Below are positions 7,201 through 49,239 of a stretch of DNA of 64,000 bases, piece after piece. The position numbers and the translations under genes were made by a program. Numbering within the stretch: the stretch's first letter is position 1; every line of letters starts with the position of its first letter. The notes beneath the pieces are model-generated. The model did no database searches. It was not told the origin of the DNA and saw only the letters and a program-made list of their open reading frames with translations. Origin of the DNA: Onthophagus taurus (taxonomy: Eukaryota > Arthropoda > Insecta > Coleoptera > Scarabaeidae); NCBI RefSeq assembly GCF_036711975.1, contig NC_091968.1, forward strand, positions 2,108,001 through 2,172,000. Reading direction: 5' to 3'.

Positions 7201-10200
7201 GAGTTTGAAATTAATGTGGCAGGAAATGTTGTAAAATCTGGTAGCTCAAATACTTTGCTGTAATGATTGGTAGAGACCTGAAGTGGGGAGCTCATGTCGA
7301 ATATATATACATTAAGGTGCAGAAAACCGTAAGTGCATTGTACAGAATAATGGGTTCGACCTATGGGCCAAGTACGGAGAAAAGAAAGCTGATAGGTTCG
7401 GTAGTCTTCTCGCAGATGCTGTACGCCTGCAAAGCTTGGAGTGGGGCGTTTGAGATAAGAAAACACAAACAAAAGCTGACGAGAATACAAAGACAGATCC
7501 TGATAAGAGTTGTCAGTGCTTACAGAACCGTCTCTACGGAAGACTGTTGGTGATTGCAAACTCTTTTCCAATTGAGTTAATCGCAAAAAGACGAATGTTC
7601 ACATGGACAACAAAAGAAGATCGTGACACCATGGAGGAATGGAACAGTGGATGAGCCAAGTATTCCGGAAAAGCACAATGGACGAAAAGAATAATTCCGA
7701 AAGTTAAAACATGGGTTACTCGGCAATGGGGAGAAATGAATTATTATATGTGTCAATTCTTGAGTGGTCATGGCTGTTTTAAAGCCTACCTTCACAAACA
7801 CAAGAGAAGAGAGGAAGAAATGTGCGTTTTTTTTATGAAAGATGGAAAGAAATACGTGAGAAAACTGAATACTAGTCATGTTAGAGAGTGAAGAAGAACG
7901 GAAAAAGACTGTGGAAGAGTTTGTAAAGGAGGTCATTGTGACGAAGGAAAGGGAGGACAGAGGAACGGAGAGCAACGGAGATGGTACGGTGGGAGAGGGA
8001 ATAGGGTAAGAAGGGCGGCTTCATCAAGAAAGCCAATCTAAGACCAGGCCGACCAGGCAGTGCGGCTGAACGACGAGGAGCAACTCGAAGTTTTTCCGGC
8101 ATGAGAAAGAGAGAGAGAGAGACGATCAAGAGGGGCGTCGTGTTCACTACACTCCGAAGACAGCTCGTGCGAGAGTTAATAAAATAATAAATAATAATTT
8201 ATTGAGCCAAATTAGAAAAAACAAAATACAATAATAAGGAAAAGTACAATAATATTAAACTTAATTTATAGCTCAAAGGGTGCAAGGGCAGAAAAGGCAA
8301 AACAATGCCACTGATTTTACTTGCACCTAATGAGAGCAGCAGCAGAAAATAAAATAAAAGTTAAATCAAATCAAAACTGAGCAGTATCAATGAAAATGAG
8401 ATAATAAAAATAAAAACAAGTAGTATTAAATTACCAAAAGAATCAAAAGCAACATTATATCAATTATCACAAAAACCGATCAAACACCCTGTCGCGCAAA
8501 ACAATAGATCTAAACAACTGAACCGAGCGGGCACACCTCGCAGAACTGGGAATCGCATTCCAAAAACGAGCTACTTGATAGGAAAACGAGCACTGAAATT
8601 TTGACGATCTATGCAGCGGAACTGTAATACAAAATCCATGCCTAAAATTCAAATTGTGTACATCAGTTCTGAAGGTAATTTTGCGAGAAAGATAAGGAGG
8701 TTTACCAGAATAAATAATCCCATGAATAAAAGACAAGTAATGAAAAACAAATCTCTGTCGCATATTCAGCCAACCACAATTCTGAAGAGCTTGTGAGACG
8801 TGATCACCTCTCCTCAATTTATAAATAAAGCGAAGACACGAATTCTGCACGACCTGAATTCTTCGCAAACTCTCAAAAGATAGACATGGACCAAATACAA
8901 CGTTACAATAATTAAAGTGAGACAAAACTAGAGCATCACAGAGAAGGCGTTTGAGCTTTATCGACAAAAACATTTTACTAAAATAGAGGCTTCTAAGAGA
9001 CCCATACGCGCGCCTACATATCAACCTAATGTGATCACCAAAAGTAAGCCTATCATCAATGACAACACCCAAACTCTTGACCGAGTCCACCACTCTTAAT
9101 TGCTCCTCTAGCATACTAATGTTAATGTCATTTTTATTAACAGATAAGTTACCCTTTTTAGTAAATAAGATGCATTGGGTCTTGTCAGGATTGATCACAA
9201 GAGCATGCCTTTGTATCTCCACACATAAGTGACCCAATTCCTCAGTAATTCTGTCACATGCATGAGGCAACTCAGCAGGTATGCTACAATTGTAGAAGGA
9301 TCAGAACAAACGGATTTAACCTTAACCGATTGCATCCTGTTAGAAAGATAGCTCCGAAACAAGGAAACAGCACAATCAGAAACACCAATAAACCTCAGAA
9401 TAGCCAACAAAAGGTTATGATACAAAATATCAAATGCCTTGCTGAAATCAAGAAGCACAAGTACAGTAGATCTTCCCCCATCCAGAGCTCTAAAAACGTC
9501 ATCTGTTAGATCAAGAAGTGCCGTGGCACAGCTATACTGTCGCCTAAAGCCAGATTGTTTCTGAGGTAAAATATGATTAGAATTTAAAAAGGATTGTAGT
9601 TGTTCCGCCATAATCCTCTCCAACACTTTGGAAAGAACCGGGAGGATGGTAGTGGGCCTCAGATCTTTAAACTCCTTAACTGGATTGGCTTTAGGAACAG
9701 GAGTCACCAAACCAAACTTCCACGCACTCGGGTAAACTGACTCTTTCAAGCAGAAATTAATTATATGGCAAAGAACACTCAAAATACGAGGACAGCACAA
9801 CCTAACCATATCCAGGGAAATTCCATCAGAACCAACACTAGTGGACTTAAATGAAAGTAACATTCGCTCAACAAATTCCACAGAGACGTCGCTGAAAGTA
9901 AAAGTAGTACCTTCAGGATTTAATCTATAACTATCATAAAAATGTAATAAATCAGCGTCAGGTTCAACAACAACATCACCAATAGCTTCAGAAAAAAACA
10001 AATTAATATTGTCCGGATCGGCCAGGTGAGGAGGTAAATCTGATAGTTCTAGTTTTACACTAGCACTGTCACTAGAACTAACACTAAGCCTAGAAGTAGA
10101 ATAATTTGGGTTTAGCCGTCTTCAGAGACGTGCTTCACTAGTATTAGTCCTAGTTTTGCGTTAACACTGTCACTGGAACTAACACTAGACCTAGAATCAT

Positions 10201-11815
10201 TCGGGTTTAGCCGCACGTCTCTCAAGACGGCTAAACCCTAATGATTCTAGAATGATTCTAGGTCTAGTGTTAGTTCTAGTTTTGCACTAGTATTGTCACT
10301 AGAACTAACATAAAAGGTAGAACTAGAATCATTCGAGTTTAGCCGTTTTGAGAGACGTGCGGTTAAACCCGAATGATTCTGGTTCTAGATCTAGTGATAG
10401 TTCTAATTTTGCACTAACACTGTCACTAGAACTAACACTAAGCCTAGAAGTAGAATCATTTGAGTTTAGCCGTTTTGAGAGACGTGCGGCTAAATCCGAA
10501 TGATTCTAGTTCTAGGTTTAGTGTAAATTCTTTGGCTATAACGGACACTCTCTTTTCCGTATTAATCCGTTATATCAAGGTTTTACTGTATTAAAAAATC
10601 AAAAATAATTTGAAATTTACCTCATTACAATTAATTAATAATTCGCTTTGGGTTGAAGAATTCGCATTAATACCTTCAATCATTTTACAAAAATTTGCAT
10701 CTTTATCTTCGGGATTATTTAATTTATAATCGCTTAATATAGTAAAAATTTGTGGTAACCACAACCTTAAACTATTCATACTCATTATAAACCCAACTTC
10801 AATTATACCGATTAACAAGAAATTCCATAAATAAATTCTCGAAAATAACGGTTTGATCTGTTTAAATCCATTTTTTAAAGCATCAATCGAAGATTTATTT
10901 ATAACCCTTTTATCTTCATTAATAAGCATTTTAATTGGATAATCATCAATGCTTTTTCCCGTATTTAAATGGAAGATTTTTCGAAACACTTTTAAAGCTT
11001 CGTCGTTTCTCCCAGCAGTCATCAAATATTTTGGACTCTCCGGGATAAAAAAATGTCCAATCGAACTGATTATACAAGGAAACGAGCTGATTATTATAAA
11101 AAAGTTCCACGATTTTAACTGAAACGTTCCATTTAAAAATTTTACGTTCCAATTTAATGGTATTATCAACCACGCTAATAACGGCATGGTCATATTTGCC
11201 AAACCATAAATAAGTCCAATAAAAAGAACAACTTGGGCACGATATTTCGACGAATGATACTCGGATAAAACGGAAGTTAATGTTACAAAAGGTCCATTAA
11301 CTCTGTTAAAAAAGAAAATTTAAAACGATTAAATAATTTTTTTTTGTATTTACTTACATAAATCCAGTGAGAAATTTTAAAACCACCAACATTTCGTAGT
11401 ATTGTGAAAACCCTGCTAAGATAATTAAAAAGGCGTTTATCGCGTAACAAGAAACAATAATTTTCTTTCTTCCTAAAGTATCAGCTAGAAAACCCCAAAG
11501 CAAAGCACTCGGAACCATCCCTAAATAAGAAATACTATTTAAAAGTCCAGCTTGTTCTAAAGTTATTTGTAAATCGCATCGAGCCACTGGAATAACGTAA
11601 GACATCGTTGTGCTATCGAAATTAGTCGCAAAGTAACTTGGAATTGCTAAAAGTAGAAGGAGGATATTAAATTTTCCAAATTCCGCTGAAGAAATTGCTT
11701 TTTCAAAATCAGCTGGTTCTAAAAATGAAAAAGTAATAAATATATTAAAAAAAATTTTGTTAAAATTACCTTCATAATTTATAATTTCTTTGGTAGACTT
11801 TGTTTTTGATTTCAT
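4257..11815 (-). CDS. SV2-like MFS transporter A (synaptic vesicle glycoprotein 2-like)
   Basis: A membrane transporter of the major facilitator superfamily, SV2/organic-ion-like branch; the substrate is unknown. Exons (minus): 11815-11770, 11718-11358, 11302-10621, 4782-4511, 4440-4257. All junctions have GT/AG and phases match; the sum is 1545 nt, 514 aa. Start is ATG 11815 (MKSKTKSTKEIINYE). Motifs: EPADFEKAISSAEFGKFN at the N-terminus, GFLADTLGRKKII in the loop after TM2, and PESPKYLM before the central cytoplasmic loop. It ends FFLPNTDNKALE. Introns 1, 2 and 4 are 51, 55 and 70 nt; intron 3 is 5838 nt because a nested TE composite sits in it. The paralogue B has 51 nt at the same position and phase. 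No frameshift or stop is seen, so it could be functional if the long intron splices. Confidence 0.9.
4945..5060. repeat. Palindromic satellite unit, left block of composite
   Basis: One unit: arm TAGAACTAGAAACATTCGGG, centre TTTAGCAGTATGTCTCTTAA, then the inverted arm and a spacer with CACTAGTATTGTCACTAG. Confidence 0.85.
5043..8165 (+). mobile_element. Degenerate R1-clade-like non-LTR retrotransposon
   Basis: In order on the plus strand: an AP-endonuclease-like domain (5043-5560; motifs IFIMGDLNAKSA and LSDHATIKFEV), a linker (5647-5979), then RT from about 6660 (GFRKGKSTVHAIEEVL, TKGVPQGSVLGPLLWNIFF at about 6930-6990) and a palm motif reading ARADDLAIVI near 7030, where YADD is normal. 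A C-terminal domain follows with many stops and frame changes to about 7900. The GC-richer 3' end has an AATAAAATAATAAATAAT tail by about 8200. A block of unrelated sequence and 82-bp repeats (5990-6662) splits it between linker and RT. Not active. Confidence 0.8.
6225..6662. repeat. ~82-bp tandem repeat inside R1-like element
   Basis: Units contain CTAACCTTACCTAACATTCC then TTCACGGTTTAATTGGCATT and AAAGAAAACTTCACGCTATA. Copies near 6354, 6437, 6519 and 6646 give periods of 83, 82 and 127 (the last includes an extra half unit). The 5990-6225 stretch before it has several GAAACATTTC motifs and no recognisable gene. Confidence 0.8.
8170..10020 (-). mobile_element. Jockey/CR1-like RT fragment with active-site block deleted
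   Basis: Two minus-strand frames, 10001-9195 and 9270-8467, give an RT. The first has LDFSKAFDILYHNLLLAIL and ends inside SDPSTIVAYLL. The second begins within the thumb region (VINPDKTQCILFTKKG, SLGVVIDDRLTFGDH) and runs to the C-terminus (FSYQVARFWNAIPSS, FDRFL stop). The GVPQGSxLGPLLF and YADD segment between them is missing, so the copy cannot be catalytic. The 3' end is a TTA-rich tail near 8180. Confidence 0.85.
10036..10535. repeat. Palindromic satellite array, right block of composite
   Basis: About four units of the palindromic repeat, with centres in both orientations (for example GCCGCACGTCTCTCAAGACGG near 10210 and GCCGTTTTGAGAGACGTGCGG near 10340). It abuts the pogo-like right TIR (10536-10588). 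Confidence 0.9.
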
Positions 11816-12034: not shown

Positions 12035-15000
12035 TTACACTTTATTATTTCTCGCTTTAAAATCAATCCACAATCCCGATTTAGGTATTGCCATAACAAC
12101 AAACGGGTTTAAATCAAAAGGATTTCCGGTTTTTGGGTTAACACTAATTTCGAATTCTTTTATAATAGCAATCGTGGATATTTTCATTAAATAAACGGCC
12201 AATTTCATTCCGGCACAATATCTTTTTCCAATTCCAAAAGGAATATAAGTCCCTTTTATAATTTTGTTTTTATTTTTTTCGGAAAATCGTTCCGGAATAA
12301 ATTCTTGGGCGTATTTAAAATATCTTTCATCGTGATGCATTCCAATAACTGAAGCAGCAATTGACATTCCCGGTTCTACACTAACAATTTCATCTTGATC
12401 ATTTTTCACTTTAAATTCGAAATAACCAGTACATCTTTTCATATTGATTTGAACAGCTGGATATAATCTCAATGTTTCTACAAAGAAATATTTTTATTTG
12501 TTGTGGTCTTATGATATAGTCTTGTGTCGATCTGGTATAAATGTAGCGTCTCGGCCACAAGCGACCTCGACTTATTACAGTGACATCGTTTATATTTCAA
12601 TGTATTATAATGTTTATATTTACGGGTCTATTCCCTATTGGCACGGGAAGGATAATATAAATGAACAAATTTACCATTTTAATATACAAATGTATAATTA
12701 TCTACGAAAAATAGGTCCTACGGGAAACAGTTATGTAGAAACAAATTCTTTAATTGGCAAAATAGATAATACTAGGGATGGTTTGCATGTTAGATTGTCT
12801 GGTAAACGTAAGTTATTGTTTTATATTGCTAAATTAATTGTTAATATCAGCGAGAAACATGGCTGTTCCAATGATCGGAACTTAATTAGGGTAAACGTAG
12901 TCGAACTTGATCGCGCACCAAACGAATCTCTGCTAAGTGCCCCCGGAAATCGTACTAAAAGTTTTTCAAATTTGCGCGTACACGAGGAAATGTCTTAGCT
13001 ATAAGTGGTCCGATTGTAAATCACTTATGTAATGGAGGGGGCGATGTTCATGCAAAGTTTGCGTAGAAAGATTTTTGAGCTAGAGGGTTTTGTTATAGAT
13101 AAAAAATATACACTGTTGGAAATAATTCACGAGCACACCCTGTATAATCTGAACGCGTGTGTCTAGCGGAATAAAATTTGGTATGGAAGTAGTACTAAAG
13201 TAGTGTAACTTACTCTCACATGGAGAGCGGCACAACTCTGCTGGGAGATGAAAACATCAATAGCGAGAGTATCCCCCGTGAGCTTCGCGTACCATCGCTA
13301 CACGACGTGGCATGGAGTCTATAAGTCGGTGTATTGTAGCGAGAGGGATGGCCAACTATGCCACCTCAACTCGCCTCCATAGCTCCAAAACGTTAGCCGG
13401 GGAAGCCGGATAACGTTGAAGTCTCCGACCAGTCATTTTCCAAACATGTTCGATTGGACTCAGATCCGGAAAACGAGCTGACCTAGGAAGCATTCGTATA
13501 CGGTGCTCTTCCGCAACGGTCTGTACAATACGCCCGATGTTCGTTCGGACGTTGTCGTGCATGTATAGGAGACCTGGACGCCGCCGAACGTAGGGAAGCA
13601 CAACGGACCGTAGCACCTCATCTACGTATCGTTGACCCGTCATGGTCTGCTATACACGCAGCAGACATGTACGTCCACCATGTGTAATAGCACCCCATAC
13701 CATAATGCTCGGTTGTCGGTGGATAGGGCATTCTTGCACGCACTGCTCGAGTAGACGATCACCACGTCTCCGACGAACTAAAATTCGCGCATCACCGGTG
13801 CTCAATTCGAATCTTGATTCGTTGGAAAACAAAATGTCCCTCTACTCGGCAATCTACTAATGCATAGCGTTGACCCGCTCGTGACGTATGCTGCGGTGCT
13901 CGGGTGTTACTGGAATCCGCTGTATTGCACGACGCGCGCGCAGTCTACTCTCTACCAAACGCCGCCATACAGTTCGCGTAGTGAGTGCGCCTTCCCCTGC
14001 CGGTGGCCAAACAGCTCCAAGTTGCCTTGAGGAGGACGCACACGACGCTAAAGCGCTGAGCACAAGAGTGCAATCCTCGTGTGCTGGGGTTGCGCAGGGC
14101 CGTCCCGGCCGCGGCTGTAGCTACCTATGTCCAACCTCAGACCATTCTCGCCATGCTCGTTGCACTGCCGATAACGACCGCTCGAGACGACGCGCAATTT
14201 CACGGAACGATACACCCTCAATGTGCATACCCACAAACATTCCTCGCCCAAACTCGCTTAAGTAACGCGATCGCTCATCCATTGCGCACAGAGTACGATA
14301 ACAATGTGGTCCCTCACATCATACTAAAAACGACCGGTATTTTCCATCCACTTCGGTCTCCATAGCGACGGAATGTTCCACTTGGAAGGGCGGCTCAGTC
14401 AACAATGCCGCGACGGAACAACTCGAAACTCACTGAATAAACTCGTCTACAGTAAAGCTTTGTGCTCCGCAAATATTATGGATTTATCTTCACGCGTTCA
14501 GATTATATAGGGTGTGCTCGTGAATTATTTCCAACAGTGTAGTATTTTATGCCTAAACGAGCATTGGTTATATGAAAATGGATCTAACATATTAAAGATA
14601 AGTGATTTGAAAATAATTTCTGGCTTTTGCAGATCGCTGCACTCCCATGGCGGAGTCGCTATTTATACTAGAAAAACAGTATCCCTTAGGTCCTTGTCGT
14701 TTGATATTGTGAGTTACTCCAATGAGCTGTACTTTGAGGTTGCAGAGAATAATTGTAATGACTAAGGCTCGTTACTACAATCTTCTGGTTAAGCTATCTA
14801 AGGGATTATTACCACGGTTACAAAAGATGGTAGTAATGGACCTAAGGCACGGAACTTTTGTAACAAGAGGATACGATTTCCCCCCTCCACTTGTTCTCAG
14901 TGGCTTCCTAGAAAACAAACCCAGAAGACTAGCCAATGAGAACAAGTGGAGGGGGGAAATCGAATCGTTTTGTTACAAAAGTTCTGTGCCCTAGTAATGA

Positions 15001-18000: not shown

Positions 18001-21000
18001 TATTATTCATAAACGATCTGTTAACCCTTAGTAATAATAACAACGAAATTATTCTTTTTGCCGATGACACTAGTGCATTGCAGAAATCTGGTAACCTGTG
18101 TGATCTGGAGCAACTAGTTGATGAATCCCAAAAAATATTTTTAACTGGTTTTCTGAGAATCGTCTTAGTGTGAATGAACACAAAACACAGTCCCTAATTT
18201 TCTCATTAAGGCCGCATACTTTAAATGACAATAGCTCAGTTAAATACACTGTTGGAAATAATTCACGAGCACACCCTATATAATCTGAACGCGTGAACAT
18301 AAATCCATAATTTTTGCGGAGCATAAAGATTTACTGTAGACGAGTTTATTCAGGGAGTTTCGAGTTGTTCCGTCACGGCATTGTTGACTGAGCCGCCCTT
18401 CCAAGTGGAACATTCCGTCGCTATGGAGACCGAAGTGGATGGAAAATACTGGTCGTTTTTAGTGTGGTGTGCGGGACCACATTGTTATCGTACTCTGTGC
18501 GCAATGGATGGACGATCGCGTTACTTAAGCGAGTGAGGAATGTTTGTGGGTATGCACATTGAGGGTGTATCGTTCTGCGAAATTGCGCGTCGTCTCGAGC
18601 GGTCGTTATCGGCAGTGCAACGGGCATGGCGAGAATGGTCTGAGGTAGGACATAGGTACCTACAGCCGCGGCCTGGACGGCCCTGCGCGTCCCCAGCACT
18701 CGAGGATCACGTTCTTGTGCTCAGCGCTTTAGCGTCGTGTGTGTCCTCCTCAAGGCAACTTGGAGCTGTTTGGCCACTGGCAGGGGAAGGCGCACTCACT
18801 ACGCGAACTGTACGGCGGCGTTTGGTAGATAGTGGACTGGCGCGCGCGTCGGTCGTGCGATACGGCGGATTCAAGTAACACCCGAGCACCGCAGCATACG
18901 TCACGAGTGGGTCGACGCTAGGCATTAGTAGATTGCCGAGTAGAGGGACATTTTGTTTTCCGACGAATGACCGTGATGATCGTCTACTCGAGCAGTGTCT
19001 GCAAGAACGCCCTATCCACCGACAACCGAGCATTATGGTATGGGGTGCGATTACATATGGTGGACGTACACGTCTGCTGCGTGTATAGCAGACCATGACG
19101 AGTCAACGATACGTGGATGAGATGCTACGGTCCGTTGTGCTTCCCTACGTTCGGCGGCTCCCAGGTCTGCTATACATGCACGACAAAGTACGACAGCACA
19201 TCGGGCGTGTTGTACAGACCTTTGTGGAAGAGCACTGTATGAATGCTTCCATGGCTAGCTCGGATTCCGCATCTGAATCCGATCAAACATGTTTGGGACA
19301 TGATTGGTCGGAGACTTCTACGTTATCCGGCTTCCTCGGCTAAAGTTGAGGAGCTATGGAGGCGAGTTGAGGTGGCATGGTTGGCCATCCCTCTCGCTAC
19401 AATATAGCGACTTATAGACTCCATGCCACGTCGTGTAGCGATTGTACGCGAAGCTCATGGGGGATACTCTCGCTATTGATGTTTCTCCTCCCAGCAGAGT
19501 TGTGCCGTTCTCCATGTGAGAGTAAGTTACACTACTTTAGTACTACTTCTATACCAAATTTTATTGCGCGTTCAGTGTATCTCGGAATTCACCTTGATGC
19601 CAAACTTACATGGGATTCTTCATTTGATTAAAAGGTTAAATACCAGTATTTTTTTGATTCGTAGCTTAGTGAGAGTGGTATCGCCGAAGATGGCACTTGC
19701 TGCCTATTTTGTACATTTTTATTCTCATATGACGTACGGCATTTTGTGTTGGGGGCATTCTGCTCACGCTTCGTTTGTCTTCCGTACTCAGCTAAGATGT
19801 GTGAGAGTTCTGGCAGGCATGGGTTTCGCGGAGTGTTACAGGGCAAAGTTTATTGAATTTGGAATTCTTACTTTTCCTTGTGCGTACATTTTCAATTGTT
19901 TACTGTTTATAAAGAATAACTTAAACGGTTACAGCAAAAATCGGGATTATCATTCTTATAATACCCGGAATAAAGGTGACCTTGTTTCAGATTTTACTCG
20001 AACGACAAGGGCTAGATATGGCGCAAATTTTTACGGTTTAAAATTATATAACGCTTTACCAGAACGAGTGAGAAATTTAGAAGCACTGAAATTTAAAGTA
20101 GTATTAAAAAGGTATTAACTTGATAAGGCCTTTTACAGTGTGGATAAATTTCTAACCAGTGATTTTACTGAATTGATGTGACCATCTCGCCATTCACTGT
20201 TAGTTGTTTAGCTAGTGCATATATCTATTATAATACATAATGTTTTTCCGTCATAACAAGAAACTATTGTGTTTGTCTAAATAATGTAGGTACATTTATA
20301 TTTTGTATGTTCTGCTGATGTATGACTTGTGAAATAGCTTCGGCTGACATATCATCAATAAAGAATTATTATTATTATTATTAACCCGAGGCAGTACGTT
20401 GTTTGACACCAACCTTGTGTTGATGTAGCGCTTCGGCTGCAAGCGACCTTGACTTATTATAATGACCATAAGGTAAACTGAATTAAGCGAAATGAAAGAA
20501 TTTTCACCATAAGCGAAGACACATTGTAAATACCATAAATAATAAAGTTATACTTTACCTGAAATAACACAATCTAAATAAGACATTTCTTGAATAGCAT
20601 CAAACGTTATTTTATCATCATATTTTTTTAAAACTTCATCTATTTCAATTTGAAGTTTCTTTTGAACTCCTAAATGCGAAGCTAAAGAATACAAAACGTA
20701 ACTTTCTTGGTTAGCCGTTGTTGGATCTAAAATAAACGAGAAAGCAAACGATAAAAGATTCATTTCATCACTCTTTTTATCGTTTTTTGTTAATTTTAAA
20801 ATTTGGTCTATAATGTGGTTGTTCTTAATTTGATTGTCATATCGATATTTTGTTGCTATCTTTATAGTTTTCTTGACGTATTCAACAAATGATGCAGATA
20901 TAATTCTAAAATTAAAAAAATATATAATTTATAATTTAAAATATTTTTTTTAAGTACTTTAAACGTAATAATTTGGCGAGATTTGGCGCAACTACCATAA

Positions 21001-23768
21001 CGAATATCTTCAAACCAAATGTTATTGTTGGATCCATAAATGTTTGAGACATTTGTCGAAACACAGCGTTATCATCTTTAAATGAGTTTCCTACAACTCC
21101 AAAAGCTGATAAAGCATTCGCATCGGCTACATATCTTGATATTAAATCACGAGCTTCTAAAGTTTTATTTTTATGGATATGATCAATAAGATCTTTAATA
21201 CCTTCTACTAAAAAGGGCAATACTTGTTTTATCTAAAATAAAATATAAAGTGAATTTCACTTAAGATACAATATACAAAAATATATTTCCATAGAAACCA
21301 GGAAACTTTGTCCCACATAAAATGCGACATGTCAATATAATTTAAAATTACAGTAAAACCTCAATATAACGGATTAATACGGGGAAGGCAGTGTCCGTTA
21401 TAGATCAATAAAAATATACAACTATATAGCGCTTAATAACAAATAAAACTAGACTAACACTAGCACTAGAACTTAGCGCTAGTTAGCATAAAATATCACT
21501 GTTACATATTTTTATTGAACCAAAACTAGAACTAACACTGGAGCTAAACCCGAAACTTTCTAGTTGTAGGTCTAGTGTTAGTTCTAGTTTTAATTGTTAT
21601 ACAGCGCTAGACTGTTGTATATTCTTATTGAACTAAAAGTAGAACTAACACTGGACCAAGAACTGGAATCATTCGGCTATAGCCGTTTTATGAGACGCAC
21701 GGCTAAACCCGAATGTTTCTAGTTCTAGGTCTAATGTTAGTTCTAGTGACAGTGTAAGTGTAAAACTAGAACTAACACTATACCTAGAACTAGAATCATT
21801 TGGGTTTAGCCGCACGTCTCAAAAGACGGCTAAACCCAAATGATTCTAGTTTTAGGTATACTGTTAGTTTTATATAGCAACAGTGCTAGTTTAAAACTAG
21901 AACTAATACTAGACCTAGAACTAGAAACATTTGAGAAACTTTGAAACTTTCTAGTTGTAAGTCTAGTGTGAGTTCTAGTTTTAATTGTTATACAGCGCTA
22001 GACTGTTGTATATTCTTATTGAACTAAAAGTAGAACTAACACTAGACCAAGAACTAGAATCATTCGGCTTTAGCCGTTTTATGAGACGCACGGCTAAACC
22101 CGAATGTTTCTAGTTCTAGGTCTAATGTTAGTTCTAGTGACAGTGTAAGTGTAAAACTAGAACTAACACTATACCTAGAACTAGAATCATTTGAGTTTAG
22201 CCGCATGTCTCAAAAGACGGCTAAACCCAAATGATTCTAGTTCTAGGTCTAATGTTAGTTCTAGTGACAGTGTAAGTGTAAAACTAGAACCAACACTATA
22301 CCTAGAACTAGAATCATTTGGGTTTAGCCGCACGTCTCAAAAGACGGCTAAACCCAAATGATTCTAGTTCTAGGTATAGTGTTAGTTTTATATAGTAACA
22401 GTGCTAGTTTTAATTGTTATACAGCGTTAGACAGTTGTATATTTTTATTGAACTAAAAGTAGAACTAACACTAGACCAAGAACTAGAATCATTCGGCTTT
22501 AGCCGTCTTATGAGACGCACGGCTATACCCGAATGTTTCTAGTTCTAGGTCTAATGTTAGTTCTAGTGTTAATGCAAAGGTAAAACTAGAACTAATACTA
22601 TACCTAGAACTAGAATCATTTGGGTTTAGCCGTCTTTTGAGACGTGCGGCTAAACCCAAATGATTCTAGTTCTAGGTATAGTGTTAGTTCTAGTTTTACA
22701 CTAGCACTGTTAGTATGTAGAATTAACACTAGACCAAGGACTAGCATCATTCGGGTTTAGCCGTCTTTTGAGACGTGCGGCTAATCCCAAATGATTCTAG
22801 TTCTAGGTATAGTGTTAGTTTTATATAGTAACAGTGCTAGTTTTAATTGTTATACAGCGTAAGACTGTTGTATATTTTTATTGAACTAAAAGTAGAACTA
22901 ACACTAGACCAAGAACTAGAATCATTCGGGTTTAGCCGTCTTTTGAGACTTGCGGCTAATCCCAAATGATTCTAGTTCTAGGTATAGTGTTAGTTTTATA
23001 TAGTAACAGTACTAATTTTAATTGTTATGCTAGATTCGCCGTTTTTAGAGACGACTAAACCCGTCTGGTTCTAGATCTAGTATTAGTTCTAGTTTTATAC
23101 TAGCACTATCACTAGAACTAACTAAGAAGTTTTAGGTCTAGTGTTACATCATCTTTTCCAAGCAAAACTGTTCCTTTTGCAAAACTACCCAATACCTGTA
23201 CTATTAAGCTATGTTGCATTTTATGTGGAACAGTAACTATGGTTATTGCATTAATATATTGCGAGTTATATGAAATTCCCGATATACTTTTCGTGTTGTT
23301 AATATTGGTGTAAATAATTCCCTATTTTTCTTCCATTTTTGACCAACATTTGAAAATAACATTCCTGCTAAAACGGGATCCAAACTTGGTTCAACGGTTA
23401 ATTCATTTTTCCAAAATGAATCAGAACCGTGCACAAAGGCTTCTTCAATAAGATCGGGTGTTGTTAATAAAAGACATGGTGTTCTCATTTTATAGAAACC
23501 AACAAATGGGGATTTTGAATATTTACTGAAATAAAATTAATTATTATATTTTTATTCAATTTCTTTTTGTATTTTATTACCGATATATCTCTCCAACTAT
23601 TTGAGGAATATTTTTGTGAAAAAATGCAGCGTCTTTAATACTCCCAAAAAATAATTTCGGTTGATCGAATGGAATCTTTTTCTTCTTCCAATAATCATAA
23701 TTACACGTTGAATATTTATACAACGCAATAATAAAAAGAACCAACAAAATTAAGTATAACATAGTCAT
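12035..23768 (-). CDS. Cytochrome P450, CYP6/CYP3-clan-like
   Basis: A microsomal heme monooxygenase, likely of detoxification or secondary metabolism. Exons (minus): 23768-23581, 23525-23288, 21232-20958, 20905-20559, 12477-12035; phases match and give 496 aa. Start is the first ATG, MTMLYLILLVLFIIALYKY, an N-terminal membrane anchor. Seen: helix C WKKNR; ExxR as ETLR, split by intron 4 one base into the Glu codon; FIPERF; heme loop PFGIGKRYCAGMKLA with the Cys ligand; C-terminus FKARNNKV. Odd: the helix I segment that normally reads [AG]GxET is SFILDPTTANQES here, keeping a Thr but with Pro where the acid residue should be. Introns 1 and 3 are 55 and 52 nt, introns 2 and 4 are 2055 and 8081 nt and full of mobile elements. 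The family name cannot be assigned by eye. Confidence 0.92.
13111..14538 (-). mobile_element. Tc1-like transposon, copy 1 (complete TIRs)
   Basis: 1428 bp, bounded by CACTGTTGGAAATAATTCAC and its inverse, flanked by TA on both sides. The minus-strand transposase shows a HTH region, FSNESRFEL (first catalytic Asp replaced by Asn), YMHDNVR (second Asp kept) and LSPIEHVWK (Glu kept). Frames are broken. Removing the element with one TA restores the retrotransposon reading DKKYSILCLNEHW exactly. Confidence 0.92.
15127..16450 (-). mobile_element. Mariner/Tc1-superfamily element remnant
   Basis: The left end is TA then CAGGGTCAGCCAAACTCG at 15127, directly after the retrotransposon motif TGDFNV. 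Minus-strand 15839-15579 encodes a DDE transposase core (GHFGINVRCGIIDRYLVGPYFF, ENVWFQMDGPP with the second Asp). Upstream pieces to about 16400 show degenerate HTH-region matches. The right terminus is unclear: a different terminus, ATACAGGGTGATTGACATC, occurs at 16455. The stretch 16456-17200 holds no gene I recognise. Confidence 0.7.
18247..19577 (+). mobile_element. Tc1-like transposon, copy 2 (right TIR deleted)
   Basis: 1331 bp, same family as copy 1 but in inverted orientation. The left TIR is CACTGTTGGAAATAATTCAC after TA. The right end reads TTCAGTG then TA: most of the TIR is lost between two CAG triplets. The transposase is broken: FSDE is intact but followed by a stop, YMHDKVR keeps its Asp, and NPIKHVWD has Lys where copy 1 has the catalytic Glu. 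Excision with one TA restores SVKYLGIHLDAK in the host retrotransposon. Confidence 0.9.
21250..23281. mobile_element. TIR element with palindromic core, filling P450 intron 2
   Basis: The end near the splice acceptor (AGTGAATTTCACTTAAGATA, then CCCACATAAAATGCGACATG near 21311) is an inverted match to the end near the donor (GGGAATTTCATATAACTCGC, then CCACATAAAATGCAACATAG). The TIRs are thus about 85-95 bp. Both ends are also homologous to those of the element in the Gr intron (44960-48886). The interior is palindromic satellite, with a pogo-like terminus at 21351. The element starts about 6 nt inside the donor and stops about 16 nt before the acceptor. Confidence 0.75.
21443..23140. repeat. 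Palindromic satellite array (P450 intron 2)
   Basis: About ten units with arms TAGAACTAGAATCATTCGGG / CCCGAATGATTCTAGTTCTA and centres such as TTTAGCCGCACGTCTCAAAA. Some spacers contain TTGTATATTTTTATTGAACT. Centres occur in both orientations. Larger blocks (about 430-450 bp) are themselves repeated, for example 21580-21800 and 22000-22220. Confidence 0.92.
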
Positions 23769-34164: not shown

Positions 34165-37100
34165 TTATTGTAGGGCTTTCATGTCAGTATTTGGTATCAA
34201 AAACGTGATGAGAACTGCTATTAAAATACATGATCCGATAAGAATAAATGGGGGTAAACAGCCTAATTCTAATAAAATTGGAAAAATTACGTTTCCTCCC
34301 ATAGCCCCCATTCTTCCTATCATTAAAGCTAGAGATATAGCAAATGTTCTGAAAAAAAAATTAGTAAAGATATGAATGTTGTTAAAACTTTTTTTACCTC
34401 AAAGTCGTAGGAAATAAATCGACAACAACCGATAATTGAACATTTATACAAACACCAAGCAAGGAAATAAATATTGCTGAAAGTGCAGTTGTAGTTGCAG
34501 TATTTTGGGCGAAATATATGCAAAATCCTGAAATTCCACTGATAGTTCCAAGAACAACTAAAATAAAATAAAAATATAAATATCATAAAAATAATAAATT
34601 TCGATACAAACCTAACAAACTCTTTTTCCCAACTTTATTAATAACAATACTAGCTATTATAGTCGTTATAATTGAAGCAGCACCAATAATTAAAACGTTC
34701 GTATAAACACCTCCAACAGATTTATTAACAATACATTCAACATTTGACGATACATTTTGATTTGGAGTAATAATTTCTAACATTTCACATAAACTCGCAG
34801 TTTTATCATATTTCGCTTGATAATCATTAATAGCTGTGAATATTTGTGGTAACCATAATCTTAATGTATTTGTTCTAAAAAAACATAATTAACCAAAATA
34901 ATTACAGTAAAACAAAAATGGATTAATTAGGGGGAAGGAATTGTCCATTATAGTTAAAAGTCCTTTATATGAAAAATTTTTAATGAATAAATAATTGATA
35001 ACTAACAATTAAAACTAGAACTAACACTAGACTTAGAAGTAGAAACATTCGGGTTTAGCCGAACGTCTCTTAAGACGGCTAAATGCGAATGATTCTAGTT
35101 CAAAGTCTTGTGTTAGTTCTAGTGGGTGGTGCAAAACTAGAACTAACACTAGATCGAGAACTGGAAACATTCGGGTTTAGCCGCACGTCTCTCAAGACGG
35201 CTAAACCCGAATGATTCTACTTCTAGGTCTGGTGTTAGTTCTAATGACAGTCAGTGTAAAACTAGAACTAACACTAGACCTAGAACTAGAAACATTCGGG
35301 ATTAGCCGAACGTCTCTTAAGACGGCTAAACCCGAATGATTCTAGTTCTAGGTCTTGTGTTAGTTCTAGTGGGTGGTGCAAAACTACGACTAACACTAGG
35401 CTTAGAACGAGAATCATTCGGGTTTAGCCGAACGTCTCTTAAGACGGCTAAACCCGAATGATTCTAGTTCTAGATCTAGTGTTAGTCCTAGTTTTGCACC
35501 AGCCACTAGAACTAATACAAGACCCAGAACGAGAATCATTCGGGTTTAGCCGCACGTCTCTTAAGACGGCTAAATCCGAATGATTCTAGTTCTAGATCTA
35601 GTGTTAGTCCTAGTTTTGCACCAGCCACTAGAACTAATACAAGACCCAGAACGAGAATCATTCGGGTTTAGTCGCACGTCTCTTAAGACGGCTAAATCCG
35701 AATGATTCTAGTTCTAGATCTAGTGTTAGTCCTAGTTTTGCACCAGCCACTAGAACTAATACAAGACCCAGAACGAGAATCATTCGGGTTTAGCCGCACG
35801 TTTCTTAAGACGGCTAAATCCGAATGATTCTAGTTCTAGATCTAGTGTTAGTCCTAGTTTTGCACCAGCCACTAGAACTAATACAAGACCCAGAACGAGA
35901 ATCATTCGGGTTTAGCCGCACGTCTCTCAAGACGGCTAAATCCGAATGATTCTACTTCTAGGTCTAGTGTTAGTTCTAATGACAGTCAGTGTAAAACTAG
36001 AACTAACACTAGACCTAGAACTAGAAACATTCGGGTTTAGCCGCACGTCTCTCAAGATGGCTAAACCCGAATGATTCTAGTTCTAGATCTAGTGTTAGTC
36101 CTAGTTTTGCACCAGCCACTAGAACTAATACAAGACCTAGAACGAGAATCATTCGGGTTTAGCCGCACGTCTCTCAAGACGGCTAAACCCGAATGATTCT
36201 ACTTCTAGGTCTAGTGTTAGTTCTAATGACAGTCAGTGTAAAACTAGAATTAACACTAGACCCAGAACTAGAAACATTCGGGTTTAGCCGAACGTCTCTT
36301 AAGACGGCTAAACCCGAATGATTCTCGTTCTAGATCTAGTGTTAGTCCTAGTTTTGCACCAGCCACTAGAACTAATACAAGACCTAGAACGAGAATCATT
36401 CGGGTTTAGCCGCACGTCTCTCAAGACGGCTAAATCCGAATGATTCTACTTCTAGGTCTAGTGTTAGTTCTAATGACAGTCAGTGTAAAACTAGAACTAA
36501 CACTAGACCTAGAACTAGAAACATTCGGGATTAGCCGAACGTCTCTTAAGACGGCTAAACCCGAATGATTCTAGTTCTAGATCTAGTGTAGTCCTAGTTT
36601 TGCACCACCCACTAAAACTAATACAAGATCCAGAACGAGAATCATTCGGGTTTAGCCGCACGTCTCTTAAGACGGCTAAACCCGAATGATTCTAGTTCTA
36701 GATCTAGTGTTAGTCCTAGTTTTGCACCAGCCACTAGAACTAATACAAGACCCAGAACGAGAATCATTCGGGTTTAGCCGCACATCTCTCAAGACGGCTA
36801 AACCCGAATGATTCTACTTCTAGGTCTACTGTTAGTTCTAATGACAGTCAGTGTAAAACTAGAACTAACACTAAACCTAGTACTAAAAAACATTCGGGCT
36901 TAGCCGAACGTCTCTTAAGACGGCTAAACCCGATTGATTCTAGTTCTAGATCTAGTGTTAGTCCTAGTTTTGCACCAGCCACTAGAACTAATACAAGACC
37001 TAGAACGAGAATCATTCGGGTTTAGCCGCACGTCTCTCAAGACGGCTAAATCCGAATGATTCTACTTCTAGGTCTAGTGTTAGTTCTAATGACAGTCAGT

Positions 37101-40100
37101 GTAAAACTAGAACTAACACTAGACCTAGAACTAGAAACATTCGGGATTAGCCGAACGTCTCTTAAGACGGCTAAACCCGAATGATTCTAGTTCTAGATCT
37201 AGTGTTAGTCCTAGTTTTGTACCAGCCACTAGAACTAATACAATACCCAGAACGAGAATCATTCGGGTTTAGCCGCACATCTCTCAAGACGGCTAAAAAC
37301 GAATGATTCTACTTCTAGGTCTACTGTTAGTTCTAATGACAGTCAGTGTAAAACTAGAACTAACACTAAACCTAGAACTAGAAACATTCGGGCTTAGCCG
37401 AACGTCTCTTAAGACGGCTAAACCCGAATGATTCTAGTTCTAGGTCTTGTGTTAGTTCTAGTCGGTGGTGCAAAACTACGACTAACACTAGACTTAGAAC
37501 TAGAAACATTCGGGATTAGCCGAACGTCTCTTAAGACAGCCGACTGATTCTAGTTCTAGGTCTTGTATTAGTTCTAATGACAGTGTTAGTGCAAAACTAG
37601 AACTACCACTAAACCAGAAATAGAATTATTAGGGTTTAGCCGTCTTGAGAGACGTGCGCCTAAACCCGAATGATTCTAGTTCTAGGTCTTGTATTAGTTC
37701 TAGTAGCTGGTGCAAAACTAGGACTAACACTAGATCTAGAAATAGAAATATTTGGGTTTAGCCGAACGTCTCTTAAAACGGCTAAATCCGAATGATTCTA
37801 GTTCTAGGTCTTAGTTAGTAACTGTGCTAGTGGTAAACTAGAAGAACTAGTTTTAGTATATTTATATATTCTTACCCACACATTCCTCCCATAAACATTA
37901 AACAAACCAAAACAATATTAATAAGATGAGGTGGTAAAAATAATGTTTTGATGTGTCTAAACCCTTCGCATAATTTTTCTTTGGTCGTTCTTTTATTATT
38001 ATTATTATTATTTCCCTCGATATAATTTTCATCGATTAAAATTTTAATTGGAAACTTTTCAGTAGATTTTCCAGTATTCATCGAATAAATTTGTTGAAAA
38101 ACTTTCAAAGCAACTTCATTTTTCCCACTGGTCATCAAAAATTTCGGACTCTCCGGTAAAAATGAATGCCCGATTGTGCTTATTAAACTGGGCAGAGTGC
38201 AAATTAATATAAAAAAATTCCAAGAATGCAAATTAAAATTATCTTTTGATACATCCCAATTTTGGGGGAGAATTCCCCATGCCAAGAGTGGCAAAAATAA
38301 ATTCGCAAAGTTGTAAATAACGCCCAAACTGATTAAGAGCTTCGCTCGGTATTTGGCTGAGTGGAATTCGGATAAAGCTGATGTTAACGCAGCGAATGGA
38401 CCATTTATTCTATAAATATTAAAATAATTTTTTTGTATAATAAGGTAATATTAACTTACACAAAACCCGTCATAAATTTAGCAGCCATCAACATTTCAAA
38501 ATTTTGCGACAATCCAGCTATAAACACAAAGAACGCATCCAAACCATAACCGATAACCAATAATTTTTTCCTTCCAAAAGCATCTGCTAAAAATCCCCAA
38601 ATAAAAGCACTTGAAATCATTCCTAAATAAGAGATTGCGTTTAACATTCCTCTTCCTTCTAACGACAGGTTTAAATCGCAATGGGCCGATGGTACAACAT
38701 AAGCCATTGCTGTGCTATCAAACATTGCAGCCCAACCACTTGGTAAAGCTAGTAAGATTAAGAGGAAATTAAATTTTCCAAAACCAGTAGCAGCTATTGC
38801 CGTTTCAAAATCAGCTTCTAAAAATATATTTAAAATTGGAATTAAAAGAGGTTCTTACAAAATTAGACTTATAAAAATGTTGTTGGTATGTGTCAAAATG
38901 TTACTAATCAATTAAAAACATCATCAAGCTATTTCAAAATGCCAAAGAAAGTTAATAACATATTTTGCAGAAACTTCAAAAACTCTAGAATACGGAAAAA
39001 AGTTAGTGGCATGGATCAAATTTGCTTTGGTTGATTATAAACATACCTGGGATGATTAAGGAGGATGAAGAAATGAAAAAAAAGATTGTTGGTGTTTTTT
39101 GCAAGTTTATCAAATAGCAGAAATTAAATATTATTTGGTGGTATGTGTCAAAACGACACTAATAGTTTGGAAAAATGTTGAAACGAAGGCTAAGTTGTTC
39201 GCAATACTTCTGGTGAACGTAATACTTGCTTTAAGTGTGTTTGAAAAGAAAACCACCATATAAACAGCACCACAATATTGTTAGTTGAAGAGTCCTGTAC
39301 CAGAATAAGACGCAAGAAAGTCGCATAAATGCGTTTGTATGAAAAACGGTGAAAATGGACTTTCTAAGAAAAGTATGCAGAGTATTAAGCTTGGATCATG
39401 TTCCAAATTAAATCGACATTGATGAGGTTGAATCCAAACAGTTGATAAGATATAATAATATAAATTGATGGCCAAAAAGAGCTTTTGATATGTACCTCAA
39501 TATAGAAGAAAGAGAGGTAGACCAAATACATCCTGGATTTAAGTGATCAGACAGATTATAACTGATCAAGCCTTACCAGAGGAGGGATGGAGGAATAGAA
39601 AAAAATGGAAAGATCGAAATGTGGGGTGCGGTAAAGGAACCGTGCCATTATATATAAGATAAAATTGTTGGTGTTTCTGGCAAGTATATCAAATAGCAGA
39701 AATTAAAAATTACTTGTTGGAATGTGTCAAAACGACACTAATCGATAGGAAAATTTATGAAACGAAGGCTAAACGGTTGTCAATAGTTCTGGTGAACGCG
39801 AAACTTGCTTTAAATGTGTTTGAAAAGAAGACCAACATATAAACAGACCCACGATAATATTAGTTGAAGAGTCCTGTCCGAGAACAGGATGCAAGAATGT
39901 CGCAAAAATGCGTTTGTATGCTCGAAACGGTGGAAATGGACATTCTAAGAATAGTAGGCAGAGTGTAGCGTTCTGTGGCAGCAGCTCCATTTGAAAACAT
40001 AAAATTGTAATTCATTTGTTATTATTTTTATATTCACACACAATTGTTTTTGAAGCAAAACATAACAGACGCAAAATAAAAAGTCTGCCAACAGTTAATT

Positions 40101-44079: not shown

Positions 44080-47000
44080 ATGGGTGAAAATCGATTAAAA
44101 TATATTAATATTTTCTTGTTTATAACAAATCTTTTTGGAATAACACCACCGTTAGATAAAACTTTTCGTCTTAAAACGTACTCAAAAAAGTTAAGAATTT
44201 TTTACATAATCGTAATAATTTTCACATTTCTTTTCACCTCCGATGGAAAAAGAAGACTTTTATACAGTTACATAGGTGGAACAATCGCCGTTTTGGATTT
44301 AACCCCCGTGATCGCATTTACAATCGCCGTAATTATTAATATTTTCCAATGCACCATCGTTAAACCGAAAAAATACGAAAACATTTATCACACTTTATAT
44401 TTAATCGAAGAAAAACTTTCAAATTACAACATAAAACGTACAAAAATCTTGTTTCGAATCTTACCAATTTATTTATCTTGCATATTTGGCGCAATAATCC
44501 TATTAATCAACTTAAAAGTTTGCGACGATTTAACACAAAGTTTGTATTTTTGTCTAATATGGTATGTACCACCGGATTTATATAAAATTGGGTTTATTTT
44601 TATTTATGGACAATTACACAGTTTACTTATTTATTTAAGAGAAAATTTTAGAGATTTATGCAGAGCTTTTGAAAGCGTTGTTAAATCATGTAATAATTAT
44701 AGTGAATGGAAATTTAATGACGAAATTCAACGTGTTATTAAAATATACGATCTTTTATGCGATGTAATGAACATGATTAATGAATTATTTGGTTCAACAA
44801 TTTTTCTTCTTTACGTCTATTCATTTATCACAATTTTATTCGGATTAAATCAAATATTTATGATTGGAGAGTTAATTTTTATATTTCAAAGGAACCAAAT
44901 TATTATGTATGTTATGGTTTATGCAACAGTCAGTCTTGCTGGTTTTGTAAGGAATATACCGAGAATTTCATATAATTCGCAATATATGAATGCAGTAATC
45001 ATAGTTATGAGAAACTACTTTGCACTTGCATTATCCCACATAAAATGCAACATAATAGTACAGGCATTGGGTAGTTTTGCATTGATAGTACTAGCACTAT
45101 CATTAGAACTAACACATGACCTATAGTTCGTTTTTTTTCTATAATACTTGTCAACGTAAATTTTTTAGGGTTTCTGTTGGTATTATCTAGGACCCTTATA
45201 AAATTTACGTTATTTTCCTGATTTTTAGTAACATTTTCAGTAACTAAATAGTTGAGGTTAAAATACTAATAAATTTGTAGATAAATACGATTTTAACGAA
45301 GTACATATTTATTGTAAAAACGTGCTAAAAAGTAATTAAATAGAACAAAACACCTTTTCTAGGTAAGTAAATGGCAAATAAACACCTCACAACATTTTTT
45401 ATGCACTTTTTCTTTTGGAATAACGAAAGCTCAAACGTCAGTGTGACGTATCTACTTCAAAACATGATAAAACAAAATTCCTTGTTAATTTTGCCAACTT
45501 TACAACAATTTCACAGGTATTATAGAAAAAAAATGAACTATAGAACTAGAAACATTGGGATTTAGCCGCACGTCTTTCAAGACGGCTAAACCCGAATGAT
45601 TTTAGTTCTAGGTCTAGTATTAGTTCTAGTTTTAGTTCAATGAAAATATACAACATAGATATCTAGTGCTAACTTGCACTATCTGGTATTGTCACTAGTC
45701 ACTAGAACTAACATTAGACCTAAAACTAGAAACATTCGGGTTTAGACGTGCGTCTCTTAAGACGGCTAAACCTGAATGATTCTAGTTCTAGCTCTAGATC
45801 TAGTGTTAGTCCTAGTTTTGCACCAGCCAATAGAACTAATATAAGACCTAGAACTAGAATCATTCGGGTTTAGCCGCACGTCTTTCAAGACGGCTAAACC
45901 CGAATGATTCTAGTTCTAGGTCTTGTGTTAGTTCTAGTGATAGTGCTAGTGCAAAACTAGACTTAACACAAGACCTAGAACTAGAAACATTCGGATTTAG
46001 CCGTACGTCTTTCAAGACGGCTAAACCCGAATGATTCTAGTTCTAGGTCTTGTGTTAGTTCTAGTGATAGTGCTAGTGCAAAACTAGACCTAGAACTAGA
46101 AACATTCGGATTTAGCCGTATGTCTTTCAAGACGGCTAAACCCGAATGATTCTGGTTCTAGGTCTTGTGTTAGTTCTAGTGATAGTGCTAGTGCAAAACT
46201 AGACCTAACACAAGACCTAGAACTAGAAACATTCGGATCTAGCCGTACGTCTTTCAAGACGGCTAAACCCGAATGATTCTAGTTCTAGGTCTTGTGTTAG
46301 TTCTAGTGATACTGCTAGTTCAAAACTAGACTTAACACAAGACCTAGAACTAGAAACATTCGGGTTTAGCCGCACGTCTTTCAAGACGGCTAAACCCGAA
46401 TGATTCTAGTTCTAGGTCTTGTGTTAGTTCTAGTGATAGTGCTAGTGCAAAACTAGACTTAACACAAGACCTAGAACTAGAAACATTCGGATTTAGCCGT
46501 ACGTCTTTCAAGACGGCTAAACCCGAATGATTCTAGTTCTAGGTCTTGTGTTAGTTCTAGTGATAGTGCTAGTGCAAAACTAGACCTAGAACTAGAAACA
46601 TTCGGATTTAGCCGTATGTCTTTCAAGACGGCTAAACCCGAATGATTCTGGTTCTAGGTCTTGTGTTAGTTCTAGTGATAGTGCTAGTGCAAAACTAGAC
46701 CTAACACAAGACCTAGAACTAGAAACATTCGGATCTAGCCGTACGTCTTTCAAGACGGCTAAACCCGAATGATTCTAGTTCTAGGTCTTGTGTTAGTTCT
46801 AGTGATACTGCTAGTTCAAAACTAGACTTAACACAAGACCTAGAACTAGAAACATTCGGGTTTAGCCGCACGTCTTTCAAGACGGCTAAACCCGAATGAT
46901 TCTAGTTCTAGGTCTTGTGTTAGTTCTAGTGATAGTGCTAGTGCAAAACTAGACCTAGAACTAGAAACATTCGGATTTAGCCGTATGTCTTTCAAGACGG

Positions 47001-49239
47001 CTAAACCCGAATGATTCTGGTTCTAGGTCTTGTGTTAGTTCTAGTGATAGTGCTAGTGCAAAACTAGACCTAACACAAGACCTAGAACTAGAAACATTCG
47101 GATCTAGCCGTACGTCTTTCAAGACGGCTAAACCCGAATGATTCTAGTTCTAGGTCTTATGTTAGTTCTAGTGATACTGCTAGTTCAAAACTAGACTTAA
47201 CACAAGACCTAGAACTAGAAACATTCGGATTTAGCCGTACGTCTTTCAAGACGGCTAAACCCGAATGATTCTAGTTCTAGGTCTTGTGTTAGTTCTAGTG
47301 ATAGTGCTAGTGCAAAACTAGACCTAGAACTAGAAACATTCGGATTTAGCCGTATGTCTTTCAAGACGGCTAAACCCGAATGATTCTGGTTCTAGGTCTT
47401 GTGTTAGTTCTAGTGATAGTGCTAGTGCAAAACTAGACCTAACACAAGACCTAGAACTAGAAACATTCGGATCTAGCCGTACGTCTTTCAAGACGGCTAA
47501 ACCCGAATGATTCTAGTTCTAGGTCTTGTGTTAGTTCTAGTGATACTGCTAGTTCAAAACTAGACTTAACACAAGACCTAGAACTAGAAACATTCGGATT
47601 TAGCCGTACGTCTTTCAAGACGGCTAAACCCGAATGATTTTAGTGCTAGGTCTAGTGTTAGTTCAATGAAAATATACAACATAGATATCTAGTGCTAACT
47701 TACACTATCTAACATTGTCACTAGAACTAACATTAGACCTAAAACTAGAAAAACTCAGGTTTAGACATGCGTCTCTTAAGACGGTTAAACCTGAATGGTT
47801 CTAGTTCTAGGTCTAGTGTTAGTTCAATGAGGAATATACAATAATTTAATGCTGAATAACAGTTAAAACTAGAACTAACACTAGACCTAGAACTAGAAAC
47901 ATTCGGATTTAGCCACACGACTTTCAAGACGGGTAAATACGAATGATTCTAGTTCTAGGTCTTGTATTAGTTCTAGTGGCTGGTGCAAAACTAGGACTAA
48001 CACTAGATCTAGAACTAGAATCATTCGGGTTTAGCCGTCTTAAGAGACGTTCGGCTAATCCCGAATGTTTCTAGTTCTAAGCCTAGTGTTAGTCGTAGTT
48101 TTGCACCACCCACTAGAACTAACACAAGACCTAGAACTAGAATCATTCGGGTTTAGCCGTCTTTATAGACGTGCGGCTAAACCCGAATGTTTCTAGTTCT
48201 AGGTCTAGTGTTAGTTCTAGTTTTACACTGACTGTCATTAGAACTAACACTAGACCTAGAAGTAGAATCATTCGGGTTTAGCCGTCTTGAGAGACGTGCG
48301 GCTAAACCCGAATGATTCTAGTTCTAGGTCTTGTGTTAGTTCTAGTGGGTGGTGCAAAACTACGACTAACACTAGACTTAGAACTAGAAACATTCGGGAT
48401 TAGCCGAACGTCTCTTAAGACGGCTAAACCCGAATGATTCTACTTCTAGCTCTAGTGTTAGTTCTAGTTTTACACTGACTGTCATTAGAAACTAGAAACA
48501 TTCGTGTTTAGCCGTCTTAAGAGACGTTCGGCTAAACCCGAATGTTTCTAATTCTAGGTCTAGTGTTACTTCAAGTTTTGCACTAGAACTAACACAAGAC
48601 CTAGAACTAGAATCATTCGGCTTTAGCCGTCTTGAGAGACGTGCGGCTAAACCCGTATGTTTCTAGTTCTAGGTCTAGTGTTAGTACAAGTTTTAGTTCA
48701 ATAAAAATATAGAACATAGTGATATCTTACGTTAACTAGCGCTACCTACCACTATGACTAGAATTAACATTAGACTTACAACCAGAAACATTTAAACATG
48801 TTGCATATTATGTGATACAAAGTAGATACGCTCTGGCTTCTACTAGAAATAAATTTTTGTATATTGCATTTTAAGTGAAATTCACCATATGGTTTATTTA
48901 GTTTAATTAATAATTTTTTTCTAGTTAATACTAATTTTATCATCGATTACATCTGAATCTATAAATAATGAAATGGTTTATTTATCCTCGATTATTTTAA
49001 AGACAATCGTTAAGCTTAAACGAGAAAATCCAATTTTAGAAAGAAACTCAAAAGAAGCTTTATTAATTTTATCAAATAGAATTGTTTATCATTCTCCGGT
49101 TATTTCCGCAAATGGATTTTTTAAGCTAAATAAAACTTTGTTATTTTTATTGCTTAATAATATATGTTCTTATTTAGTTGTTTTAATTCAATATAATAAC
49201 TCTAAAACTACAAATGTTTTTACATCAACGAATCATTAA
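44080..49239 (+). CDS. Gustatory receptor (7tm_7 family)
   Basis: A chemosensory ligand-gated channel of the insect Gr family, plasma membrane, gustatory neurons (family knowledge). Exons 44080-44946 and 48925-49239, joined in phase 0, give 393 aa. ATG 44080 (MGENRLKYINIFLFITNLFG). Exon 1 encodes TM1 to about TM5, ending TVSLAGF before the donor GTAAGG. Exon 2 starts after TTTTTTTCTAG with LILILSSITSESINNE and contains SANGFFKLNKTLLFLLLNN then CSYLVVLIQYNN, the Gr C-terminal signature (TYhhhhhQF-like, here SYLVVLIQY). Without splicing, the frame continues past the donor to a stop at 45126; that tail is translated mobile-element sequence, not receptor. The intron (3978 nt) is almost all a palindromic-satellite element. 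Confidence 0.87.
44960..48886. mobile_element. TIR element with palindromic core, filling the Gr intron
   Basis: The left end (GAGAATTTCATATAATTCGC, then CCCACATAAAATGCAACATA, then GTACAGGCATTGGGTAGTTT) is homologous to the donor-side end of the element in P450 intron 2. The right end (CATGTTGCATATTATGTGAT, then TTTTTGTATATTGCATTTTA and AGTGAAATTCACC) is homologous to its acceptor-side end. The element starts about 13 nt after the donor and ends about 38 nt before the acceptor. No transposase. Confidence 0.75.
45535..48800. repeat. Palindromic satellite array (Gr intron)
   Basis: About 24 units. From 45838 to 47640 units of about 127 and 117 bp follow a recurring order of variants distinguished by CGGATCTAGCC, CGGGTTTAGCC, CGGATTTAGCC and GCCGTATGTC. 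Centres are in one orientation up to about 47940; after 48010 most are reversed (GCCGTCTTAAGAGACG). Occasional spacers contain AATGAAAATATACAACATAG. Confidence 0.94.

Follow-up and report, generated by a model that had tools for sequence, protein, structure and literature searches.

In Onthophagus taurus, the second intron of a P450 gene and the intron of a Gr gene contain copies of one repeat family, on the minus and the plus strand, respectively, of a 64,000-nucleotide stretch of contig NC_091968.1 (positions 2,108,001 to 2,172,000; hereafter the window). The family has the ends CCGGGAATTTCA...TGAAATTCACTG, which are imperfect inverted repeats around a palindromic satellite core, and is most likely a non-autonomous cut-and-paste DNA transposon that inserts at TA within ATAT. 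Very probably the element entered short introns that both genes already possessed, and the host remnant of the P450 intron shrank later by deletion. The coordinates of the respective features are collected in Table 1.

Table 1. Gene segments, element copies and element-related satellite, with positions in the window
Feature	Position	Strand	Remarks and basis
P450 exon 1	23581..23768	-	Intron 1, 55 nt
P450 exon 2	23288..23525	-	Pfam PF00067
P450 intron 2, phase 0	21233..23287	-	Between ...ILTTRK and IKQVLPF...; frame and paralog alignment
Left flanking TA (P450)	23283..23284	-	Read from sequence
Element copy in P450 intron 2, 2035 nt, TCGGGAATTTCATAT to GTGAAATTCACTT	21248..23282	-	Comparison with 26 left and 21 right ends
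Right flanking TA (P450)	21246..21247	-	Read from sequence; end comparison
P450 exon 3	20958..21232	-	Pfam PF00067
P450 exon 4	20559..20905	-	Intron 3, 52 nt
P450 exon 5, haem motif FGIGKRYCAG and stop	12035..12477	-	tblastn with L030 protein; sequence
Gr intron, phase 0	44947..48924	+	Between ...VSLAGF and LILILSS...; remnant 12 + 35 = 47 nt
Element copy in Gr intron, 3929 nt	44959..48887	+	End comparison
Palindromic satellite of the element, without recognisable ends	34900..37850	.	blastn with both elements
Fragment of the element's palindromic satellite	10041..10590	.	blastn with both elements

When the two introns were compared, the left ends gave an alignment of 132 columns with 71% identity (E 5e-19), and the right ends one of 104 columns with 80% identity (E 1e-19). 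This agrees with the original prediction that both hold the same mobile element: the strings quoted there as shared are present in both introns at the places indicated, and the intron boundaries were correctly drawn. Outside the satellite, AT content is high in both introns, and a chance likeness of two unrelated AT-rich sequences was considered for that reason; it is refuted by the end alignments and by hundreds of exact end-piece matches elsewhere in the genome against none for reversed controls, and its probability is practically nil.

The arrangement proposed for the element, with ends that are inverted repeats of each other around a palindromic satellite core, was also recovered. Alignment of the consensus left end with the reversed right end extends over ~95 bp and scores 89.5, compared with a mean of 44.6 and a maximum of 60.0 in 500 shuffles, demonstrating that terminal inverted repeats are present in the family. 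Within a single copy, the inverted repeat recovered by strict local alignment is no longer than 22 bp in P450 and 17 bp in Gr. Across the 26 left and 21 right ends compared together with their flanks, both window copies included, the ends read CCGGGAATTTCATAT... and ...AAGTGAAATTCACTG. The satellite core is palindromic, with units of ~122-127 bp. No open frame longer than 86 aa was found in six complete copies of 614 to 3929 nt, and these copies are therefore non-autonomous.

Exact matches to the end pieces are numerous in the genome (290.8 Mb searched, 33 contigs), with 401 for a 16-mer, which also occurs in some reversed right ends, 224 for a 23-nt left-end piece and 202 for a 22-nt right-end piece; these counts miss diverged copies, and the reversed patterns used as controls gave 0 genome matches. 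Examination of the flanks revealed T in 23/26 and A in 22/26 positions just outside the left ends, and T in 20/21 and A in 19/21 just outside the right ends, where the count for one end (L020) is shifted by one base. The TA stands in an ATA/TAT (ATAT) context. It is found on both sides in 13 of the 16 copies read at both ends, the exceptions being L048, L060/L061 and L062/L063; this count excludes at least five further copy pairs with a truncated or diverged left end (L051, L052/L053, L054/L055, L058/L059 and the copy in a PMS2-like gene). Because no empty site was found, we infer, rather than observe, that the TA is a target duplication. In three groups of copies (L115-L118, L133/L134 and L144/L145) the flanks contain near-identical open frames; these copies either were duplicated along with neighbouring sequence or are located in other repeats.

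The family belongs to a known kind of element. Non-autonomous MITEs of the Tc1/mariner type have TA at their ends, inverted ends and no coding capacity, as does this family, which differs from them in reaching up to 3.9 kb through its internal palindromic satellite. TA flanks are typical of the Tc1/mariner superfamily and suggest a transposase of this type as the putative mobilising enzyme. A Helitron with a CTRR end was considered and rejected in view of the inverted ends and the TA context; to our knowledge, Helitrons have neither inverted ends nor target duplications. DINEs, which PMC9659126 classes as Helitrons, resemble the family in being mobile elements with a tandem array able to become satellite, and differ from it with respect to the inverted ends present here. 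TCAST-like elements of Tribolium castaneum, as described in PMC3411249, likewise represent a beetle repeat with inverted ends and satellite sequence within, hairpin-forming, dispersed and often intronic (29 of 68 lie in introns). They differ in that the TCAST satellite lies in ends of ~269 bp and the reported duplication is the 3-bp ACT, whereas the family analyzed here has ends of ~95 bp, satellite in the core, and TA.

The joined P450 exons, with the last three residues omitted, encode a protein that matches PF00067 (E 8.5e-65), and judging by the reading frame the gene is presumably spliced as given in Table 1. A pseudogene, whose intron would be free from constraint, was rejected on the grounds that exons 1-4 join without a stop, exon 5 is open and contains the haem motif, and the protein has the PF00067 match. 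Introns 1 and 3 are similar in size to the CYP6BQ introns of T. castaneum (~44-54 bp according to PMC3682917). Intron 4 (window 12478-20558), in comparison with these introns of 55 and 52 nt, is ~8 kb long.

In P450 intron 2 the element accounts for 2035 of the 2055 nt, starting 5 nt past the donor and stopping 15 nt short of the acceptor; in the Gr intron it starts 12 nt past the donor and stops 37 nt short of the acceptor (one TA is included in each figure). The two introns had been described as the same element end to end, which is correct as to the element and incorrect as to its exact fit to the introns. Similarly, the sequence left after removal of the element is small in P450 and normal in Gr, as expected, with the lengths corrected from ~22 to 18 nt and from ~51 to 47 nt. 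The P450 remnant consists of GTATA and TATTTTATTTTAG, one TA being counted once, and ends in a T-rich tract followed by AG. Translated in the exon frame it reads VYILF and then an in-frame stop (TAG), and the exon 2/3 junction aligns with that of the nearest paralog (L030) with zero missing or extra residues. Given the stop, the clean junction and the T-rich tract with AG, the 18 nt are intron and not exon. Neither splice site is part of the element. Replacement of the intron, the other origin originally suggested, thus describes the 2035 nt of element and does not extend to the donor, the T-rich tract and the acceptor, which are host and not element sequence.

The Gr protein matches PF08395 (E 2.6e-18), and both splice sites of its intron are again outside the element. 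Outside the window, a dynein heavy chain gene carries a copy (L146/L082) between ...LLKQTFVQ and SGRLLIHLGDSDVDYD..., which has TATA on either side and gives the impression of simple insertion into a short intron; its length of ~460 nt is derived from the end coordinates. The remnants in Gr (47 nt) and dynein (44 nt) are of normal intron size.

Searches of the window with the end profiles (E <= 1e-3) gave matches in the two introns alone. Besides the two stretches of element satellite without ends listed in Table 1, further such stretches occupy positions 4890-5066 and 2123-2250, and the largest one, nearly 3 kb at 34900-37850, is perhaps a satellite that outgrew or lost its element. Two other tandem arrays, at 24813-27785 and 30275-33847 (units of ~180/363 and 345 bp), showed zero blastn matches to both elements.

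The age of P450 intron 2 was assessed from paralogs in the same genome. A protein search with the exon 2-3 region returned 43 rows, from which 16 regions were fetched and 14 paralogs read, after dropping L043, which gave no alignment, and L044, which seems to represent an upstream portion of the L036 gene; judging by coordinates, the other 26 rows, L043 included, span the site in one stretch. In four of the 14 paralogs a phase-0 intron interrupts precisely this site, between K and (L/I/M/V)K, with lengths of 46 nt (L031), 50 nt (L034), 48 nt (L036) and 48 nt (L037). The intron of L034 reads GC-AG. The remaining 10 of the 14 paralogs read have no intron at the site, among them L030 (53% identity), which has kept intron 1 and lacks intron 2. 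On the phylogenetic tree, the window P450 and L030 are paired with full support and the deeper forks are weak; the presence of the intron requires a minimum of three changes, a value as low being obtained in 54 of 500 shuffles, so that it is not clearly clustered. This distribution fits an old intron position with repeated loss, from which we infer age rather than regain. That the window P450 independently regained an intron at this very position is conceivable, though it would require a coincidence.

These data bear on the possibility that the element itself made P450 intron 2 within coding sequence, in the manner of introners, with both splice sites co-opted from the insertion site. Introners, as described in PMC9860276, include DNA transposons with inverted ends that make up nearly a whole intron, as well as types that bring no splice site of their own and recruit both, and such an origin would be consistent with the predominance of element sequence in the intron and with its absence from L030. 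Nevertheless, introners create new intron positions, whereas here four paralogs carry ordinary introns at the same position and in the same phase (4/14, with 10 lacking it) and the ends show no excess of splice motifs. Moreover, removal of the insert does not restore coding sequence, as the remnant is non-coding, being interrupted by an in-frame stop, and nothing in the paralog exons, that of L030 included, corresponds to it; nor do motif counts reveal many copies coinciding with introns. We therefore consider this origin very unlikely, and the proposal that the element created the intron is not upheld, the site and phase being common to four paralogs, the splice sites lying outside the element and the motifs being at chance. 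Somewhat less improbable, though still unlikely, is insertion together with target deletion in one event, by which the 18-nt remnant would have been fixed at once with no later shrinkage. In its favour, both ends and both TA are present, so that no deletion extended into the element. Against it, TA on each side is the pattern that a simple duplication would produce, while deletion at insertion would usually remove one side, and the Gr and dynein remnants are normal in size.

The genome-wide counts of splice motifs were as follows. In the 30 nt preceding the left-end piece, the donor motif GTAAG occurs in 2/224 cases versus 4.9 expected and its control CTTAC in 4/224 versus 5.3 expected; in the 30 nt following the right end, the acceptor motif TTTYAG occurs in 6/202 versus 6.6 expected. 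Expectations were taken from the distal portions (more than 60 nt out) of 80 right flanks and are slightly too high for the left end, because the gap there includes about four bases of the element. In smaller sets, TTTYAG was found at 3/21 right ends within 30 nt, the P450 copy included, and at 0/80 within 36 nt. This is a blunt test: neither the actual donor of the P450 intron (GTATA) nor the actual acceptor of the dynein intron (TTGTAG) is counted by it, and a weak excess could easily escape it. Next to exact-match ends, splice motifs are about as frequent as chance predicts, and the large excess expected of an introner family is absent. As measured by splice motifs instead of annotated sites, exact-match copies thus show no enrichment next to splice sites, an outcome that the original prediction had named as one that would refute it. 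One of the six acceptor-motif matches precedes a convincing exon (AGKIGLGPTGHPGAALPFFCHANG..., L166, C1:5508369), which we take to be TCF/pangolin-like and whose acceptor lies 27 nt downstream of the right end.

Exons near the element were also sought in the 80 right flanks (300 nt each, some near-identical), which contain 166 open frames of at least 40 aa. Among ten frames chosen by eye for a Pfam scan, four matched (AAA_9, Spb1_C, JHBP and FERM_N) and six had no match; a further frame among the ten resembles PMS2 when compared with solved structures (E 1.4e-31). In 2/80 right flanks a recognised exon starts no more than 40 nt from the element, at 23 nt for the dynein heavy chain (AAA_9) and at 40 nt for the PMS2-like frame, and the other three start ~100 nt or further away. 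Inspection by eye of 18 newly fetched left flanks revealed zero recognised exons at the edge. The figure of 2/80 is perhaps above random placement, and the family may have a mild preference for short introns. In the PMS2-like gene (L147/L083, C1:40289950-40295089), an in-frame TAG directly precedes the truncated left end, and a right end is followed by an exon at a distance of 40 nt. Presumably ~14 residues are missing in comparison with PMS2, and the gene is probably a broken copy.

Insertion into pre-existing short introns, followed by deletion in P450, may be pictured as follows. AT-rich short introns would supply ATAT sites for insertion at TA, and the P450, Gr and dynein heavy chain introns would have been entered separately. 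In P450 the insertion point would lie inside the donor (GT-ATAT); with the host donor, T-rich tract and acceptor retained, splicing would continue. One later deletion of ~25-30 nt between the element and the acceptor would then have left 18 nt of host sequence. Such a loss, harmful in an intron of 45-55 nt, would be harmless here because the element now provides the intron length, and the likely order in P450 is insertion and then deletion.

A further and more tentative suggestion, which we regard as doubtful, is that the P450 gene has come to depend on the transposon. The 18 nt would be too short to splice, and the element would provide length, a putative branch point and a stem, formed by pairing of the inverted ends, that lets the 2-kb intron act as a short one. 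A candidate branch point, CTTAAG, was noticed by eye within the element ~30 nt upstream of the P450 acceptor. In the predicted fold of the P450 intron the innermost bases of the inverted ends are paired with a probability of 0.98-1.0, and the fold energy is -1003 versus -441 to -460 in four two-base shuffles. The predicted donor-acceptor distance of 11 falls within the range of the shuffles (8 to 28), and base pairing is predicted for the donor as well (0.73-0.95); for these two reasons the predicted fold gives no support for easier splicing.

If such dependence were true, loss of the element would break the P450 gene, a neat case of a gene trapped by a mobile element. The P450 intron is also a worked case of a near-pure transposon intron that resembles an introner and is most likely an old intron overrun by the element and then whittled down, and the tools that separate the two are the paralogs, the frame of the remnant and the genome-wide flanks.
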